Source: a virus | Length of the DNA stretch: 30,650 nt | IMG/VR virus record: IMGVR_UViG_3300027805_000057 | Coordinates: 1 to 30,650 of that record | Direction: 5' to 3' (one strand) | Shown here: piece after piece, positions 2,487 to 30,650 of the stretch | Layout: every line of letters begins with the position of its first letter | How positions within the stretch are numbered: the first letter of the stretch is position 1 | Position numbers and translations under genes: made by a program | The notes under the pieces: model-generated | The model's input: the letters and a program-made list of their open reading frames with translations, nothing else | Told to the model about the DNA's origin: nothing | The model's database searches: none

Positions 2487-5400
2487 TCATCTTGCATACC
2501 AAGGAACGTCTTGTGGTTCAAGTAACCAGTCTTTACTATTTATTGCTTTTTCTTTTAAGATGGTTTTACTACCACCAACGTCTTTTTTGATGGCATCATA
2601 AGAATAAACATTACCTTGTTTTAATAAAAACTTCAAGATATTTGTTTCACTTCCTTTCTCAATTAGTCCAATTAATTTAGCTGTTGTTTCTGGTCTATCA
2701 AAACTGTTAGCAACACCCCTCATAATTGTGTTAGAAATATAGTTTACAGTGCCAGCTCCAATGATTGTTCCTATTGGTCCAAGACCTACTGCACTACCAA
2801 TTGCTCCAGCTACAGCAGCTTTAGTTGTAAACCTGCTTAACACACCTTTGATATTTTTATCACTATTAATATTTATTTTTATTTTGTCAGTTATTTCACC
2901 AACTTTTTGTAAGACAACAGGTAGTCTTTTTATAATAAATTCAGCTTGTTTTTCATCTCTAACTAAACTTCTAATTAGATTTTCATTGTTTAAAATATTG
3001 CTTTGTGTTTTAAATGTATTGAAATCAAATTTACTATTGGTTTTTTCATAATTTATAAAATCATCTAATATAAGTTTTTTAAGTTTTATTTGTCTTAGAG
3101 CATCAAAAAGTTCTTTAGCTTTACCATCTATTTTTGATATTATTTCCCTATTTTCACCAATATCCAAGTTATATTTATGAGCTATATTAGATAAACCTCG
3201 ATCATTACCTGCATTTTTAAATTCACGTGCTTTTTCCACATCTTTTTTACTAAGAAATTTAATAACATTACTTGTACTTGTATTTGTATTTGTATTTGTA
3301 TTTGTATTTGTATTTGTATTTGTATTTGTATTTGTATATATTTTTCCTATTTCATAACCATCTTTGTCAATAAAACCGTGTTCACTAGGTAAAGGTTTTT
3401 TATTAAGACCTCTTCTGTAAGCAAATAATATCTTTCTATAATAGTTATCTGCTAATTGTTTATTTTGTTTTAAAATATCTTCTTTAGTATGAAAATTTTT
3501 ATATTGTTCAGTAGTATTACTTAAAGCTTTTCTTACTTGCTCAACACCTTTACTGGTGTTCATTATGTTAGATATATAGCCAGTAGGTTCACCTTGTAGT
3601 ATTGTTTTAATAATTTCATCTTGGGTAAAAGAGAAATAAACTTTAGAATCAAAATCTAAAGCTTTTCTATATGATGTTATAAATTCCTCTGGTAAATTAC
3701 CCAAATTCGTGTTTTTCTCAATTATTTTATCAATTAATGATACAGCTTTTCTTTGTAACTCTTCGACATTGCTATTTCCTCTATATGAAATATCATTTAA
3801 ACTTTGTCTTTTATTTACAAGCTCTATTGGACTTATAGCATTTTTTACTATTCTTCCATTTACATTTCTACTTTCAGCAGCAGAAGAAGATTGAAATAAC
3901 CTATTAAAAGTGTCTGATACTTGTTCTATTGCTGAAATTTCAGCAGCATCATTTCTACTGGTAGGGGAGAATATTTTAAAATCGTCTGATAGTTGTTTTA
4001 ATTCAGGTAAAAATTCTTCTAAACTAATAATACTATTCTCATTACTATTTAAAATTTGTCTATATTGATCGTGATTTAAATTTCTTTCTTTTGTTAAAAC
4101 ACTATTAAATTGAGGTAAAAGTGTTTTAAAATCCTCAATCTTATTTGTATAAGTAAGTTCGCTAGCATTTTTAGTAAAATCACCTAAATTTCTCTTTACT
4201 AAATCAATTGTACTTTGTTCTGTATTTTTTAATATCTTTTCTTTTAATGTATAATCTGGTAAATACAAACCTAGTTCTATTGCTTTATTGTTATTTTTTT
4301 GCAATGTATAAGCATTTACTAAATCTTTATTTTTAGATAACTCCTGTATAATAGTTTTTTTATCCGCACCATTATTGATCATATTAGCGAGTTCTGGACT
4401 TACTGCTTCAAGAAATTCCATATCAACAGGATTTCCTTTTTTATTTAATAACCAAGCAGCAAAACTTGTGTTAGTTTTATTCATTATTCCTGTGTCAGTT
4501 GAAGCATATTCAATAGCTTCTTTAGATGCTTGTTCAATTTCTCTTAATCTTTTCATGGTTAATTTACCGGTTTCAGTATTTGATTTGAATACTAAACCAT
4601 TTATCCAGTTACCGGCAGTTTCTTGAACAGTATCTAATGATTTGTATAACCCCTCTACAAAAGGTTCTTTAAGTTCAGCTACATTTTCCATTACTTTATT
4701 ATACATGGTTTTTGGCAGAGCTGTTTTTAATATATATTTAGCCCCACCAGTAACAACTCCATAACCACCTCTTACTGATACATCACCAGCAATATAACCA
4801 CCAAGAGTTCTTGCAGTGTCTTCTATTGGTGCTTGCTCCCTTGCTATTTCATCTTCTTCTCTAAAGTTATTAGCCCAATATCCTCCAACAGCTGCTGCGG
4901 TAGTATTAACTGGATTAACCTCAACACTTACTAGAGTATTTAGAAAGTTTGTAACTTTATTATTTACCAAGAAATTTTTAGCACTAGGGTTGCTAACAAG
5001 TGCTGCAACACCTTTACCAGCTAATTTTAAAACACCTCCCCCAGCAGACATTTCAACTAAAGATTCTACTGTATGACCGGCAGATACATAGTTGTCTATT
5101 ACATATTGTTGATCAGTACCTTTATATTTTTCTATAGCATCAGGTTTTAAATTATCTTCAACGTATTGTTCTGCTACTTTACCATTCCATAATTCATTAG
5201 CATCATTATAGGCTTGATCTGCTTGTTCTCTGTAATTTTTAGATATGTTATCCATACCTAACGCTCCCGTTACATTAGCAGTTGCACCTTGAACTCCACC
5301 TAATAAAGCATTACCAGCGGCGGCAACACTGTCAACAGTTTTACCTAATCCTTTATTAAAACCATATCCAAAACTGGTTGTTTTTTCTTTAAAAGAAGGT

Positions 5401-5501
5401 TCTTCAGGTGAAATACCAGACTCTTCTGGACTTACAATTCTCCACTCTCCACTTTGTATTTTTCTTTGTTTAAGAGTTTCAAAATCTTCTTTGTCTTCCA
5501 T
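2487..5501 (-). CDS. Large internal virion (DNA ejection) protein, 1004 aa
   Basis: This is the largest of three consecutive genes placed where short-tailed phages encode ejection proteins (compare P22 gp7, gp20, gp16, or T7 gp14-gp16). The N-terminus has a glycine/alanine-rich stretch (about residues 45-85). A second small-residue-rich hydrophobic segment lies near 885-920 (AAVAGAIGSAVGLGPIGTII), a plausible membrane-inserting region. Between them it is largely helical and charged. Residues about 723-744 are (TN)9(TS)2, encoded by a hexanucleotide microsatellite. No lytic transglycosylase motif was found. The start codon overlaps the preceding stop as TAATG. Family call by position, size and composition. 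Confidence 0.6.
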   Translation of the reverse strand: MEDKEDFETLKQRKIQSGEWRIVSPEESGISPEEPSFKEKTTSFGYGFNKGLGKTVDSVAAAGNALLGGVQGATANVTGALGMDNISKNYREQADQAYNDANELWNGKVAEQYVEDNLKPDAIEKYKGTDQQYVIDNYVSAGHTVESLVEMSAGGGVLKLAGKGVAALVSNPSAKNFLVNNKVTNFLNTLVSVEVNPVNTTAAAVGGYWANNFREEDEIAREQAPIEDTARTLGGYIAGDVSVRGGYGVVTGGAKYILKTALPKTMYNKVMENVAELKEPFVEGLYKSLDTVQETAGNWINGLVFKSNTETGKLTMKRLREIEQASKEAIEYASTDTGIMNKTNTSFAAWLLNKKGNPVDMEFLEAVSPELANMINNGADKKTIIQELSKNKDLVNAYTLQKNNNKAIELGLYLPDYTLKEKILKNTEQSTIDLVKRNLGDFTKNASELTYTNKIEDFKTLLPQFNSVLTKERNLNHDQYRQILNSNENSIISLEEFLPELKQLSDDFKIFSPTSRNDAAEISAIEQVSDTFNRLFQSSSAAESRNVNGRIVKNAISPIELVNKRQSLNDISYRGNSNVEELQRKAVSLIDKIIEKNTNLGNLPEEFITSYRKALDFDSKVYFSFTQDEIIKTILQGEPTGYISNIMNTSKGVEQVRKALSNTTEQYKNFHTKEDILKQNKQLADNYYRKILFAYRRGLNKKPLPSEHGFIDKDGYEIGKIYTNTNTNTNTNTNTNTNTNTSTSNVIKFLSKKDVEKAREFKNAGNDRGLSNIAHKYNLDIGENREIISKIDGKAKELFDALRQIKLKKLILDDFINYEKTNSKFDFNTFKTQSNILNNENLIRSLVRDEKQAEFIIKRLPVVLQKVGEITDKIKININSDKNIKGVLSRFTTKAAVAGAIGSAVGLGPIGTIIGAGTVNYISNTIMRGVANSFDRPETTAKLIGLIEKGSETNILKFLLKQGNVYSYDAIKKDVGGSKTILKEKAINSKDWLLEPQDVPWYAR
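3270..3335 (-). repeat. Hexanucleotide microsatellite inside the 1004-aa gene
   Basis: Eleven head-to-tail six-base units on the plus strand: two ACTTGT (3270-3281) and nine ATTTGT (3282-3335). On the coding strand these are ACAAGT and ACAAAT, giving Thr-Ser and Thr-Asn dipeptides. Because the unit is six bases, gain or loss of copies changes protein length without shifting the frame. Confidence 0.97.
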
Positions 5502-16863: not shown

Positions 16864-17796
16864 TTATGTCTGTTGTAACATATCAAATAAACTTTCCAAA
16901 TGATCATCATGCTTTTTAGTTCTACTAAAATTTGATGATCTTGAATGTATCTGTTTATTATCGTTTTTATCAAAATAATTGTCAACACTTTCTTTATTTG
17001 TGTTAATTTGTTCATTTAATTTTGATATTTCATCTTGCAAGCTGTTAACAAACGCAAATATATTTTTATGTTTTTTTAATCCTTTTTCAAAAATATTTCT
17101 ATAATCCTGACCAAGAATCAATAACTTTTCTATAGCATCAGTTGGCTCTGCTTCCTCAAGATAATCTAATAAACTTTGCCTTTCATCAATATTTAGCAAA
17201 TGGACTGAATCATAAAACGCTTTATAATTATTATCAATTTCTTTTGATTTATTATATTTTTTAAAATTTTGAAATTCATTCTCAAGTTTTTCAAGAATTG
17301 TTTTTGATTTACTATCAGCTCCAGAAATCTCATCTTTTGTTTCCAATTCATCTTCTTTAAAATCAAATATTGAAGTTAGTTTATTAACAGCATCCTTAAA
17401 CTCAGCTTCATCAAGATATGTATTATTAGGATCAAGTATAGATTTTTTCAATTCCTCAATTGTAGAGTTGAATTTCTTTTTACTTAAAACAAATTTTTGA
17501 TTAGTAGTCTGATAAGTTCTTTTAGTATCGTTTAAAGCTTTTTCCAGACTTTTTATCTGTTTTTCAAGATCGGGTTTATCTTCAACCCCTTTTTTATCAT
17601 CCTTAACAGATTTTTCTTCTTCAATACCGATATCTTTACTTTCAACTTCTATTGTTTTTTCTGTAACTTCTATATCAGCTTTTTTTTCATCTTCAACTTT
17701 TATATCAGTAATATCTTTTTTACTTTCCGTATTTTTAGAGACTTTAATTTTATCATGTATCTCACCAAGTACACTATCTAAATCATTATCACTCAT
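16864..17796 (-). CDS. Capsid scaffolding protein
   Basis: This 310-aa, highly charged protein is almost all predicted helix. The first 80 residues are acidic and Lys/Glu-rich, followed by coiled-coil-like heptads (LEKQIKSLEKALNDTKRTYQ), and it ends in a basic-plus-amphipathic tail (SRTKKHDDHLESLFDMLQQT) of the type scaffolds use to bind coat protein. It lies between portal and capsid, as in P22. It overlaps the portal stop by 8 bp. Identification is by position and composition. Confidence 0.75.
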   Translation of the reverse strand: MSDNDLDSVLGEIHDKIKVSKNTESKKDITDIKVEDEKKADIEVTEKTIEVESKDIGIEEEKSVKDDKKGVEDKPDLEKQIKSLEKALNDTKRTYQTTNQKFVLSKKKFNSTIEELKKSILDPNNTYLDEAEFKDAVNKLTSIFDFKEDELETKDEISGADSKSKTILEKLENEFQNFKKYNKSKEIDNNYKAFYDSVHLLNIDERQSLLDYLEEAEPTDAIEKLLILGQDYRNIFEKGLKKHKNIFAFVNSLQDEISKLNEQINTNKESVDNYFDKNDNKQIHSRSSNFSRTKKHDDHLESLFDMLQQT

Positions 17797-24379: not shown

Positions 24380-26455
24380 CTATATTTCTGTGTTATATCT
24401 TATCATACCTACTCCAAAATCACTAGGTCTTTCGGAAATATTACCAACTGGAAGTTTTATAGCTCCTTTTCCTAAAAATCTAACATTTTTTTGAAAATCA
24501 GCTTCTTTTTCAAAATTCGTATATTCCTTTAATACTACCTTTTTATAAAAATTAAAATTGTTATAGTCGTATTCAAATATGGTTTCTTTGCTATCCCATC
24601 CAAATTTATTTGATGTCCACGTGCCAATTGTTCTTGTTACATCGTATAAACCAAATCTTTTAGGGAATCTGTAATAATCATCACTACTAGATTCATTGTG
24701 AAAATCGGGTATACTAAAGATAAAACCTTTATATTTAGCTGTTGGATTAGGAAAAGGCCATGTATGATATTTATTTTGATAACCAAAAAGTCCTATATGA
24801 AGTGGAGCAATAGGAGAATCAAAGCCTAAATGATCACCACCGCTATCCCAAGAAAATAAACGCAAACCCGCTTCTGCTTTATCGACATCACTCCTACCGT
24901 CTGAATCAAACCATAATGTACTATAACCCCTATCATCTGAACTATAACCTGATGGAAACCTAAATTCATAATCACCAACGGCATTATGTCCCTCATCGTT
25001 TAAATCAGCACTATACCACTTATTTTTTACGTTTAATAATTGACCTCGAATATAATCTCCATAAGCTTTACCTCCTACAGCTACACCTATAAAACCTAAA
25101 ATAGTCCCAAGAATACTTATAGCTTCTACTCCTGCTAGAGCTGCAATCTGCTCTTCCATAGCAGCTAAACTTGCCATTTTTTCAAAAATATCAGCTGCTT
25201 TAGTTGCTGTAGCAGCTATTTCAGCTGTTTTTGCTAAACCTACCGCATTTTTAACAGCATCTGCCAGTTTACTAGCTTCTGAGAAAGTAACATCTACCAT
25301 ATCTATAGTGTCTTTAACACCACCTATGGTTTTTACAATCTTATTTAAATTACTTGCTTGCTCTATTGTTATACTAAAAAAATCTACAGTATCTTTAACG
25401 CCGACAAGTAATTTTACAATTTTTGTTATTTGTTCAATTTTAGTATTAATATCATCAGGAGCAACATAATCAGTTCCTTTTACAGCAGGGATTAATTCGT
25501 TAAAATTATCACTTATTTTAATTAATGAACCAGCTGCTATACTATTTATAGCTAATTTAGTAAAACTGCTCGCAATACCAGTTAATATATTAATTGTATT
25601 AGCATTAGGATAACCAAATTCTAAGGCAGTATTTCCTCTTGTGCTAAAATCTGTCGGAGCAATCAATTTGTGTCCAGAAAGAGGATATAATGGGTCTAGT
25701 ACAACTAATTTGCCAATAGGAATATCAGCAGTATTAACATAATCCTCACCTGAAATAGCCTTGGATAATGTACCTTTTTCATTATTTACAATATTTTTAA
25801 GTAATCCTGTTTCTAATGCTCCAAGTGATTGAGCCTTAGTAAAGGTATAAGTTGTTCCAAGCCCGTATAATTGTTTTAATGGTTCTGGAATAAGATACAT
25901 TTTTGGGTTTTCCCAATTAAATTCTACAACAGAACTTCCAACAATAAAATTGGCATTATCAAACCGCTTCATTATTTGTGCTGCTCTTACCTGTGTCATA
26001 GCTAAAGATGACGAGATATCTGTTCCTATTGGATTGCCCATTGTATCATACTTAGTAGCATAAATCTGTGGTAAAAAAGGCCCAGACATTACCCAATCAA
26101 AAGGTGATAAATAGTCAAAAGTAGGGTTAGGTATTCTAAAATCGCCAATAATTGGACTTATTGGATTTGGAAATACTGCCTCAGTTAAAGGTGGTAAATT
26201 TATAACGCCTATATTAAGTTGTGCTATAGGTTCATTATCATAATCACCTATCCATATTAAATTATGTTCTAATTTTTTTAATTCTTCAAAACCACCTATT
26301 TGTCTTTTTAAATCTATAATATCTTGGCGTACATCAATTAGAACTGGTGATGCAAAAGATCTTCCTACTTTGTCACCTAATAATATATATCCTCTATCTA
26401 TCGGTAATTTACCGCTTACAGGAGAAATAAAATTATATAAACGTTCATACCTCAT
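24380..26455 (-). CDS. Tail fibre / appendage protein (691 aa)
   Basis: The N-terminus (ISPVSGKLPIDRGYILLGDK, then SPVLIDVRQDIIDLKRQIGG) reads like a fibre attachment region. The middle (about residues 335-460) is helical and Ala/Thr/Val-rich with a near-repeat, IVKLLVGVKDTVDFF and IVKTIGGVKDTIDMV. A hydrophobic Gly-rich stretch follows (ISILGTILGFIGVAVGG, about 450-466), then a Trp/Tyr/Gly/Asp-rich beta domain (residues about 480-640), and finally ERPSDFGVGMIRYNTEI at the C-terminus. It overlaps the patatin-like gene by 4 bp. Probably a virion appendage; the domain before the C-terminus could bind a surface ligand. Confidence 0.65.
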   Translation of the reverse strand: MRYERLYNFISPVSGKLPIDRGYILLGDKVGRSFASPVLIDVRQDIIDLKRQIGGFEELKKLEHNLIWIGDYDNEPIAQLNIGVINLPPLTEAVFPNPISPIIGDFRIPNPTFDYLSPFDWVMSGPFLPQIYATKYDTMGNPIGTDISSSLAMTQVRAAQIMKRFDNANFIVGSSVVEFNWENPKMYLIPEPLKQLYGLGTTYTFTKAQSLGALETGLLKNIVNNEKGTLSKAISGEDYVNTADIPIGKLVVLDPLYPLSGHKLIAPTDFSTRGNTALEFGYPNANTINILTGIASSFTKLAINSIAAGSLIKISDNFNELIPAVKGTDYVAPDDINTKIEQITKIVKLLVGVKDTVDFFSITIEQASNLNKIVKTIGGVKDTIDMVDVTFSEASKLADAVKNAVGLAKTAEIAATATKAADIFEKMASLAAMEEQIAALAGVEAISILGTILGFIGVAVGGKAYGDYIRGQLLNVKNKWYSADLNDEGHNAVGDYEFRFPSGYSSDDRGYSTLWFDSDGRSDVDKAEAGLRLFSWDSGGDHLGFDSPIAPLHIGLFGYQNKYHTWPFPNPTAKYKGFIFSIPDFHNESSSDDYYRFPKRFGLYDVTRTIGTWTSNKFGWDSKETIFEYDYNNFNFYKKVVLKEYTNFEKEADFQKNVRFLGKGAIKLPVGNISERPSDFGVGMIRYNTEI

Positions 26456-27495
26456 GCAAGTAGCCGAGCTAATATACTTGAAATCTTATCACTTTCATTT
26501 GCATAATGATTATCTATCAAATCAGCAAGTTGACTAAACCACCCTGGCGTACTGTTATCTAACTCATTAGGAAAATTATCTAAAAATTTAGGTTGAAACT
26601 TATAGTAATAAACATCTCTGCTAAGCCTATTACTTAAATAATCTAAATTATATCTACTCCACTCTTCCCCTCCTGTCATAGCAACATTCATAATTTCAAA
26701 CAATCTAACTGCTGCGTGAGATATACCCTCCTCCTCAGCACTGCCATCAAAACTCATATTGCCTATTCCAGTCCCAACGTCGATTATAACTATTCTATTA
26801 GCATGTGGTTTTACACTTAATCCTACATTAATTGCCGCTAATATTGCATCATTAGCATATACTCCTCCATCACTATAAAAATGTCCGTTGAAATTATGAG
26901 CTGGTAAATAAACAGGTGCCGCACTTGATGCTCTACAAACATTTACTATACTTTCGTTATTTCCAATAAAATATGAAGAATCATTAAAATTGGAAAAAAC
27001 AACATATCTTTTCATATCTTCCTCAAAAGATGGTATAACAACAGGAATTTTTAAGTTTGCAAGCGTATTGCTACCGAAATTATCTACAAGAACTTGATGG
27101 AGTATGTTATGCCCATAGTTTGAATCCTCAAAGGACGATTTATAAAAAGGGTCGTCAGTGGCAATTAATCCTAATTTCTGTAATACACTCGGTCTATTCG
27201 AATCCTCGCTTGCATTATGACTACCAGAAGCTACGTCTGCCGCTGTCCTGATAGTAAATACACGTTTGGCATCATTTAAAAAAAAACTTTCCATATAATC
27301 AGGAGTTTTACCAAATGAATAACCAGAAGCAAGTATCGCTCCAATACTTGTTCCACACATAACATCAACATATTTCCAGAAATCAGCTTGCGGTATTCCC
27401 CATTGATGCAGAAATTTTTGCATAAAACGATTAGAGCCGTAACCCTTAGTGCCGCCACCACAAAAAGAAAATATCCTAAGAGTGTTTGTATCCAT
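26452..27495 (-). CDS. Patatin-like phospholipase
   Basis: This 347-aa protein carries the full patatin signature: oxyanion loop GGGTKG (residues 13-18), nucleophile elbow GTSIG with S50, and the catalytic Asp of DGG (D209). The Ser-Asp dyad is therefore intact. RASSAAPVYLP (188-198) just before the Asp is also typical. Patatins hydrolyse acyl esters of phospholipids (phospholipase A activity). There is no signal peptide. It sits between the large terminase gene (2-bp gap) and the fibre genes (4-bp overlap), so it is expressed late with virion parts. It might be packaged or attached to the tail to act on host membranes, or act during lysis. Patatin genes also occur in the tail region of Wolbachia phage WO, a useful parallel. 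Confidence 0.92.
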   Translation of the reverse strand: MDTNTLRIFSFCGGGTKGYGSNRFMQKFLHQWGIPQADFWKYVDVMCGTSIGAILASGYSFGKTPDYMESFFLNDAKRVFTIRTAADVASGSHNASEDSNRPSVLQKLGLIATDDPFYKSSFEDSNYGHNILHQVLVDNFGSNTLANLKIPVVIPSFEEDMKRYVVFSNFNDSSYFIGNNESIVNVCRASSAAPVYLPAHNFNGHFYSDGGVYANDAILAAINVGLSVKPHANRIVIIDVGTGIGNMSFDGSAEEEGISHAAVRLFEIMNVAMTGGEEWSRYNLDYLSNRLSRDVYYYKFQPKFLDNFPNELDNSTPGWFSQLADLIDNHYANESDKISSILARLLA

Positions 27496-29859: not shown

Positions 29860-29903
29860 AAAATTAATCCAATTTTTACAAAAAAAAATTCATATAACGA
29901 CTT

Positions 29904-29932
29904 AATGTAACACATTTCTATCTAAATATCAA
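29904..29932 (-). promoter_or_regulatory. Candidate promoter for the terminase/fibre operon
   Basis: On the minus strand TTGATA (29932-29927; one mismatch from TTGACA) is followed after 17 bases by TACATT (29909-29904; two mismatches from TATAAT), about 45 bases before the first start codon. It points into the late operon. Moderate match in very AT-rich DNA. Confidence 0.35.
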
Positions 29933-29958
29933 ATTTACCTAAATAATCAAATGACGAG

Positions 29959-30044
29959 TTTTAAACCACCATAGGAGCGTAAGTTTATTTCTAATGTATG
30001 TTTTATCATTTTGAATAAACTTACGCTCCTATGGTGGTTTAAAA
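29959..30044. repeat. Perfect 31-bp inverted repeat with 24-base loop
   Basis: The arm at 29959-29989 is the exact reverse complement of 30014-30044. The arms contain the GC-richer core ACCACCATAGGAGCGTAAG, which stands out from the surroundings. Neither side has a clear T tract beyond the stem, so it is not a standard terminator. It lies just before the late-operon promoter and after the origin-like region. Confidence 0.95.
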
Positions 30045-30159
30045 TGTCTAAAAACTGTGTGTATTGTTTAAACTTCTGTGCTTTATAATCAAAATCTAGT
30101 TATAAAATTATTCCTAACAAAAAACTAAAAAATATTTTTATTAATTCAAAAATTTATTA

Positions 30160-30189
30160 TTGACATATCCACAAAGAAAATCGTATGAT
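30160..30189 (+). promoter_or_regulatory. Sigma70-type promoter in the intergenic control region
   Basis: A perfect TTGACA (30160-30165), an 18-base spacer and TATGAT (30184-30189, one mismatch) point rightwards, out of the window. The spacer holds ATATCCACA (30165-30173), one base from a DnaA box. A short hairpin, TGCCTA/TAGGCA (30227-30243), followed by ATTTTTA lies about 35 bases past the -10 and could act as an attenuator. Confidence 0.6.
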
Positions 30190-30577
30190 GCACAGATAAA
30201 ACTTAAATTCGTAAATCACACATGACTGCCTAAAAAATAGGCAATTTTTATCTTGATTTCTGTACAGAAATAATACCATCCAATACCATCAAAATACCAA
30301 CTAAAAATAGATGGCGTCCCTTATAGACACAGGGGAAAATACCATCAATACCAACTTTTGCATTTTTTCCTCACGCGCATCCACGAAAAGAAAATCTCAT
30401 TTATTATTTTTATTTTCTCTTATGTGTACGTAAAAAGATGGTATTAATGGTATTATACACAGGTGATAAAAGGCTCGCCATCCAATACCATTAAATACCA
30501 TCCAATACCATCTTTTGTAAAAAATAATACCATCAATACTATAAATACCATCTTTTTAACATTTTTTAAAATAAATT

Positions 30578-30650
30578 AGTTAATATAAATATTAATGAAT
30601 TAATTATTATTTAATAAAATAGTTAATATAAATATTAATGAATTAATTAT
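30578..30650. repeat. 30-bp direct repeat in the AT-rich right end
   Basis: An exact 30-base sequence occurs at 30578-30607 and again at 30621-30650, start to start 43 bases, made of A and T with three G residues. The second copy ends exactly at the window edge, so the array may continue outside. Confidence 0.9.

Follow-up and report, generated by a model that had tools for sequence, protein, structure and literature searches.

Phage origins can seldom be identified from sequence, and VapE-type primase-helicases are widespread in phages and satellites. In P4, the alpha protein binds the repeats of the ori region with a winged helix (PMC4234260). The type 1 repeats of this ori are GGTGAACAG, with a spacing of 10-11 bp (annotated record NC_001609), and a blind repeat scan, used with P4 as positive control, recovered the region. 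The Rep protein of SaPIs and Cch2 of SCCmec read their iterons with C-terminal domains (PMC7581432), and the origins of PICIs consist of iteron sets flanking A/T-rich DNA (PMC6092414).

The DNA investigated here, referred to as the window, is the entire linear IMG/VR record G000 (30,650 bp). It is a phage fragment, and the complete genome behind it is a phage of about 42 kb. An array of short repeats in the window is most likely the replication origin of this phage, with the repeats serving as iterons that are bound by the C-terminal winged helix of the phage's own primase-helicase.

The repeat array

Twelve exact or near copies of AATACCATC are located at 30272-30552 (281 bp) in five blocks, inside which the copy starts are 9, 10 or 11 bp apart. 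The exact 9-mer occurs seven times on the plus strand (starts 30272, 30282, 30338, 30494, 30504, 30526 and 30544) and once on the minus strand (30437). The variant AATACCAAC occurs twice (30293 and 30347), the variant AATACCATT once on the minus strand (30446) and once on the plus strand (30484), and a thirteenth copy, at 30535, is degenerate (AATACTATA). The repeat unit of the window reads GGTATTGGAT on the G-rich strand. The best 9-mer count in positions 29900-30650 (750 bp) was 8, a value reached by none of 500 dinucleotide shuffles (mean best count 2.0, maximum 3). An earlier, sequence-only reading of this DNA had described twelve such copies in 281 bp with local 9-11 bp spacing, which was confirmed by the recount and the shuffles. 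Nor is the 9-mer scattered over the window, a point that reading had raised: the single further exact copy is found at 503, inside the P63C gene, and one-mismatch copies outside the array occur at about twice the expectation in the window, without clustering. The features of the region are:

30160..30189, plus strand: sigma-70-like promoter TTGACA-18-TATGAT (11/12 consensus positions), reading into the array and forming the left border of the origin region
30227..30243, plus strand: terminator-like hairpin TGCCTA-AAAAA-TAGGCA followed by a T-rich tail (sequence read)
30272..30301, plus strand: iteron block 1, AATACCATC, AATACCATC and AATACCAAC, starts 10 and 11 bp apart (sequence read)
30338..30355, plus strand: iteron block 2, AATACCATC and AATACCAAC, 9 bp apart, with a conserved CTTATAGACACAGGGGAAAA before the block (sequence read, relatives)
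30437..30454, minus strand: iteron block 3, inverted pair GATGGTATT and AATGGTATT, 9 bp apart (sequence read, relatives)
30453..30461, plus strand: TTATACACA, a DnaA-box match, probably not functional (judged from relatives)
30484..30512, plus strand: iteron block 4, AATACCATT, AATACCATC and AATACCATC, exactly 10 bp apart (sequence read, relatives)
30526..30552, plus strand: iteron block 5, AATACCATC, degenerate AATACTATA and AATACCATC, 9 bp apart (sequence read, relatives)
30554..30650, no strand: A/T-rich tail, 92 of 97 positions A/T (95%), candidate duplex-unwinding element, cut by the record end (composition)

Promoter-like TTGACA sites were found on both sides of the array, and a sequence nearly identical to the promoter at 30160..30189 is present in the related loci L005, L007, L010, L012 and L018. 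The hairpin at 30227..30243 is not conserved as a terminator in the relatives. The right end of the window is A/T-rich and not, as first described, A/T-only. It contains a 43-bp tandem repeat (30570-30607 and 30613-30650, 97% identical), at which the window stops because the record is a fragment; in L005 the A/T-rich tail runs on to an early promoter and the early operon. A further long hairpin, with 38-nt arms that are 92% complementary and a 10-nt loop, was observed at 29959-30044 between the array and the late operon, and a more diverged form of it is present in L005, L007 and L010.

Gene neighbourhood in the window and its relatives

The genes left of the array are on the minus strand and comprise small genes and genes for TerS-like, TerL, patatin-like, tail, portal, capsid and lysozyme proteins. 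The patatin-like phospholipase gene (26452-27495), which lies between the TerL and tail genes, is conserved in L030 and L031. A tandem ACAAATAC-type repeat at 3279-3335, inside a gene for a 1004-aa protein (2487-5501), codes for a Thr-Asn run.

Sequence right of the array is absent from the record and the window carries no helicase gene; relatives were therefore used, and a TerL search of IMG/VR gave 14 loci. In the relatives, the late and the early operon run away from each other, with the array in between. The sequence-only reading had advised a search right of 30650 for an initiator or repressor gene. The window ends there, but L005, which has the same array, carries a divergent early operon on its far side. 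This operon comprises small genes and the genes for an RHH-like protein and for a primase-helicase of 749 aa; the primase-helicase gene is 4.7 kb from the array, the array being upstream of it. The primase-helicase contains PriCT-2 and a VapE-like domain, and its N-terminus was assigned to the AEP primases by DxD and SxH motifs in the sequence and by PHROG primase matches. The rest of the early operon, in the more complete relatives, encodes DUF2800/PD-(D/E)XK nuclease, Enc34-type SSB, DNA polymerase-like, HNH, VRR-NUC and SNF2 proteins. No relative of the primase-helicase was found in the searched genome contigs (genome_contigs), and the array region had no match in the phage or plasmid records searched. 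Two contigs, L024 and L026, contain the helicase and lack the array region, and yield predictions only. A stretch of about 1.1 kb in L014 (340-1490) consists of low-complexity, GGNTAT-like arrays, between which pieces from the beginning of the gene for the DNA polymerase-like protein recur.

GC skew, a further check proposed by the earlier reading, was computed in the relative G008 (42,490 bp). The cumulative minimum (38.1-39.1 kb) lies at the array (39.03-39.40 kb), which fits an origin but is also expected of divergent operons, the minimum being confounded with gene orientation.

Conserved architecture and exchanged repeats

Conservation of the array in relatives had also been named as a check, and the AATACCATC array is indeed common to the window, L005, L007, L009 and L010. 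At the corresponding position, other relatives carry arrays of GGTAATGAT (L012, L011 and L016), GGTGAATAA (L018, L013, L017 and L027), GGTGAGTAA (L014) and GGTCATCAT (L030), while L031 showed a weak GTTATAATT array, the best 9-mer count of which was equalled by 18/500 shuffles. Spacing in the relatives is mostly 9 bp, and every relative read has the inverted central block at the corresponding location. The relatives thus keep the origin architecture and change the repeat sequence. Their repeats on the G-rich strand are mostly GGTNANNAW; a plain GGTNA count misses the array of the window itself because its repeat is GGTATT, and GGTNA is therefore not universal.

DnaA boxes and the plasmid reading

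The sequence-only reading had proposed a plasmid-type, DnaA-dependent origin, possibly of a phage-plasmid, on the basis of a perfect DnaA box and two near-boxes. All three are present in the window sequence, the near-boxes being ATATCCACA (about 30165) and TTATAGACA (about 30321). The perfect box TTATACACA, however, is not conserved, as its site reads TTATACGCA in L005, L007, L009 and L010, and the match is explained by the repeat itself. One or two TTATCCACA pairs, 12 bp apart, occur at the array edge in L005, L012, L013, L017 and L018 and leave room for a role of the host initiator. Such pairs are missing in the window, L030 and L031, indicating that DnaA is at most accessory, and may help in some members; TTATMCACA was likewise absent from the L030 and L031 loci examined. 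No integrase, ParA/ParB or other partition gene and no plasmid Rep was found among the G008 ORFs of at least 90 aa examined, and no plasmid record matched the array region. The locus thus differs from DnaA-dependent iteron plasmid origins in having neither a conserved DnaA box nor a plasmid Rep among these ORFs, and it is very improbable that the array is a DnaA-dependent, plasmid-like origin and the element a phage-plasmid. What stands of the earlier proposal is an iteron-type origin, with a conserved array beside an early replication operon and an A/T-rich segment.

The protein that tracks the repeat

Among the relatives, two natural recombinants could be recognized. The L027 primase-helicase is a mosaic, with the first ~365 residues L012-like (90%) and residues 366-740 L020-like (92-93%); residues 681-740 are 68% identical to L012. 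Informative sites in the gene shifted from 175:54 to 44:162 around nt 1200 (Fisher 9e-32; the sites are not independent). The array of L027 is of the L018/L020 type, and the DNA directly beside it is of the L012 type. Over 15.6 kb, helicase residues 366-740 were the sole compared protein segment with a clearly closer match in G008 than in L012. L027 is thus a natural domain swap, in which array and helicase residues ~366-740 match the GGTGAATAA phages on an L012-like backbone. The helicase of L020 is L005-like up to about residue 450 and in its last residues, with 51% identity in the winged-helix block, and the array of this phage is not of the L005 type. Between L020 and L005, identity is 89-98% for most of the early genes that separate the array from the helicase gene and 54% for one of them (L005 5005-5331). 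L020 and L018 show the same switch as L027, on an L005-like backbone.

Distances in the winged-helix block followed the repeat distance (Spearman 0.57, exact permutation 0.010, n=7) and those of the other five of six helicase segments did not (rho -0.21 to -0.08), in seven phages with both parts and five clear repeat types, with repeat units assigned by hand and relatedness uncorrected. Judged from these comparisons, the helicase C-terminus covaries with the repeat and no other comparable protein appears to do so.

Covariation also bears on a large cooperative operator, which the sequence-only reading had offered as an alternative. A phage regulator, such as the small RHH protein encoded beside the helicase gene, would bind the repeats and control the divergent early and late promoters. 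The array does lie between divergent promoters, the helicase has an RHH-like protein as a conserved neighbour (sub-threshold Pfam; phrog_15913), and tandem sites with a spacing of about 10 bp are often bound by proteins of the RHH family. The RHH proteins of L005, L012, L025 and L027, however, have identities of 86-90% in the pairs that were compared, yet three different repeats occur in their phages. RHH pairwise identities did not vary with repeat type, so that the repeat sequence does not track this protein, and in L027 only the helicase C-terminus tracks the repeat among the compared early protein segments. As an explanation of the array an operator is unlikely; it might be a second role.

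The repeats could also be template sites for the primase domain and not duplex binding sites, comparable to the TTTGGTTA site of NrS-1 PrimPol, at which NrSPol initiates (PMC8718748). The sole TTTGGTTA of NrS-1 lies inside the GGTTACAC array adjoining the PrimPol gene, and the window shares a similar GGT core. Repeat type, however, is tracked by the C-terminal winged helix and not by the primase domain (residues 1-190). This explanation is therefore decidedly unlikely, and may hold in addition to binding by the winged helix.

Model of the C-terminal domain

The helicase C-terminus is predicted to be a winged helix. An AF2 model of the domain showed a helix-helix-strand-strand arrangement with a pLDDT of about 80-87; an AF2 model of the entire primase-helicase was of poor quality (pLDDT 40) and served only as a hint for the C-terminal block. 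The top structural matches of the C-terminal model (VIA) were AsfvPrimPol tail domains, with a weak Z of 5.9, and this tail reportedly resembles the origin-binding winged helix of P4 (PMC10516667). A Foldseek search with the C-terminal domain had no significant result, and no match was obtained with hhalign between the helicase or its C-terminus and P4 alpha or NrS-1 PrimPol.

Proposed mechanism of initiation

For binding of the array by the primase-helicase, the following course can be proposed. The 9-10 bp repeats would be iterons for the C-terminal winged helix of a protein composed of AEP primase, PriCT-2, VapE/SF3-type helicase and wHTH. Its subunits would load cooperatively on the helically phased iterons and form helicase rings, which would melt the adjacent A/T-rich DNA, where the AEP domain would prime; hand-over to the phage DNA polymerase and the Enc34-type SSB would then start replication. 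Protein-DNA binding, melting and origin firing at the array are here deduced from the comparisons. The link of the window array to the helicase runs through the relatives because the window has no helicase gene, and we infer that the missing early region of the window phage encodes a helicase of the L005 type, the wing of which reads LVGCKKF.

A tentative extension, which we regard as possible without favouring it, is that array and winged helix form an exchangeable origin-specificity cassette. The two parts would be swapped together by recombination although they are ~5 kb apart, with the intervening genes staying in place, and wing residues and repeat might form a readable code (LKRE with GGTGA; RKDGP with GGTCA or GGTTA; VKEDK with GGTAA; LVGCK with GGTAT). 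Its diversity is perhaps maintained by coinfecting phages or satellites competing for each other's replication initiator. The two recombinants amount to natural domain-swap experiments that pair the DNA-reading domain of the helicase with its iteron, and from them follow predictions on the specificity of VapE-type primase-helicases that can be tested directly.

Comparison with known origins

Nitratiruptor phage NrS-1 is similar in its AEP-helicase fusion, in the GGTTACAC array beside its PrimPol gene and in a related terminase. It differs in its PF22762 tail domain, in the position of the array directly 3' of the gene and in being a temperate phage with an integrase. In NrS-1 (L044), eleven AGTGTAAC copies, eight of them GGTTACAC, were found at 17061-17370 immediately 3' of the PrimPol gene, with the genome's only TTTGGTTA among them; they overlap NRS1_29, a CDS of the annotation that is perhaps not a genuine gene. 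In APSE-2, too, the VapE helicase gene P3 is followed closely on its 3' side by an array, made up of eight GGTTGTTA copies, which differs from the present one in position and repeat sequence. This array (L051, 3301-3574) is a candidate origin of APSE phages. Aeromonas phage phiWae15 and Xanthomonas phage Murka, which encode distantly related helicases, showed no comparable array in the stretches scanned blind.

The array resembles the origins of P4 and SaPIs, yet is not assigned to either class because there is no crr array, the origin is not 3' of the helicase gene and there is no sequence match to alpha. SaPI and PICI origins lie directly 3' of rep, whereas the present array precedes the helicase gene by ~4.7 kb (L005) and separates the divergent operons of a full phage. 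P4 has crr as a second region, whereas no second array was found in the G008, G007 and G012 stretches scanned; alpha consists of a TOPRIM primase with a Pox_D5 C-terminus, in contrast to AEP and VapE here. The similarities to SaPIs and PICIs (Rep, Pri-Rep; SCCmec Cch2) are sets of short iterons flanking A/T-rich DNA, in five blocks in the window, and, as a probable further one, iteron reading by the C-terminal domain of the helicase, which covariation and the natural mosaics support here. The sole PDB sequence match to the phage helicase was 7pds, a VapE-like staphylococcal protein. P4 alpha is a primase-helicase that binds the origin through a winged helix at its C-terminus; the presumed initiator here is likewise a primase-helicase, and its C-terminal winged helix is predicted. 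The iterons of both are 8-9 bp long with a GGT core, 9-11 bp apart and in both orientations around A/T-rich DNA; GGTATTGGAT of the window and GGTGAATAA and GGTGAGTAA of the relatives are not identical to GGTGAACAG of P4, but are like it in length, spacing and GGT core.
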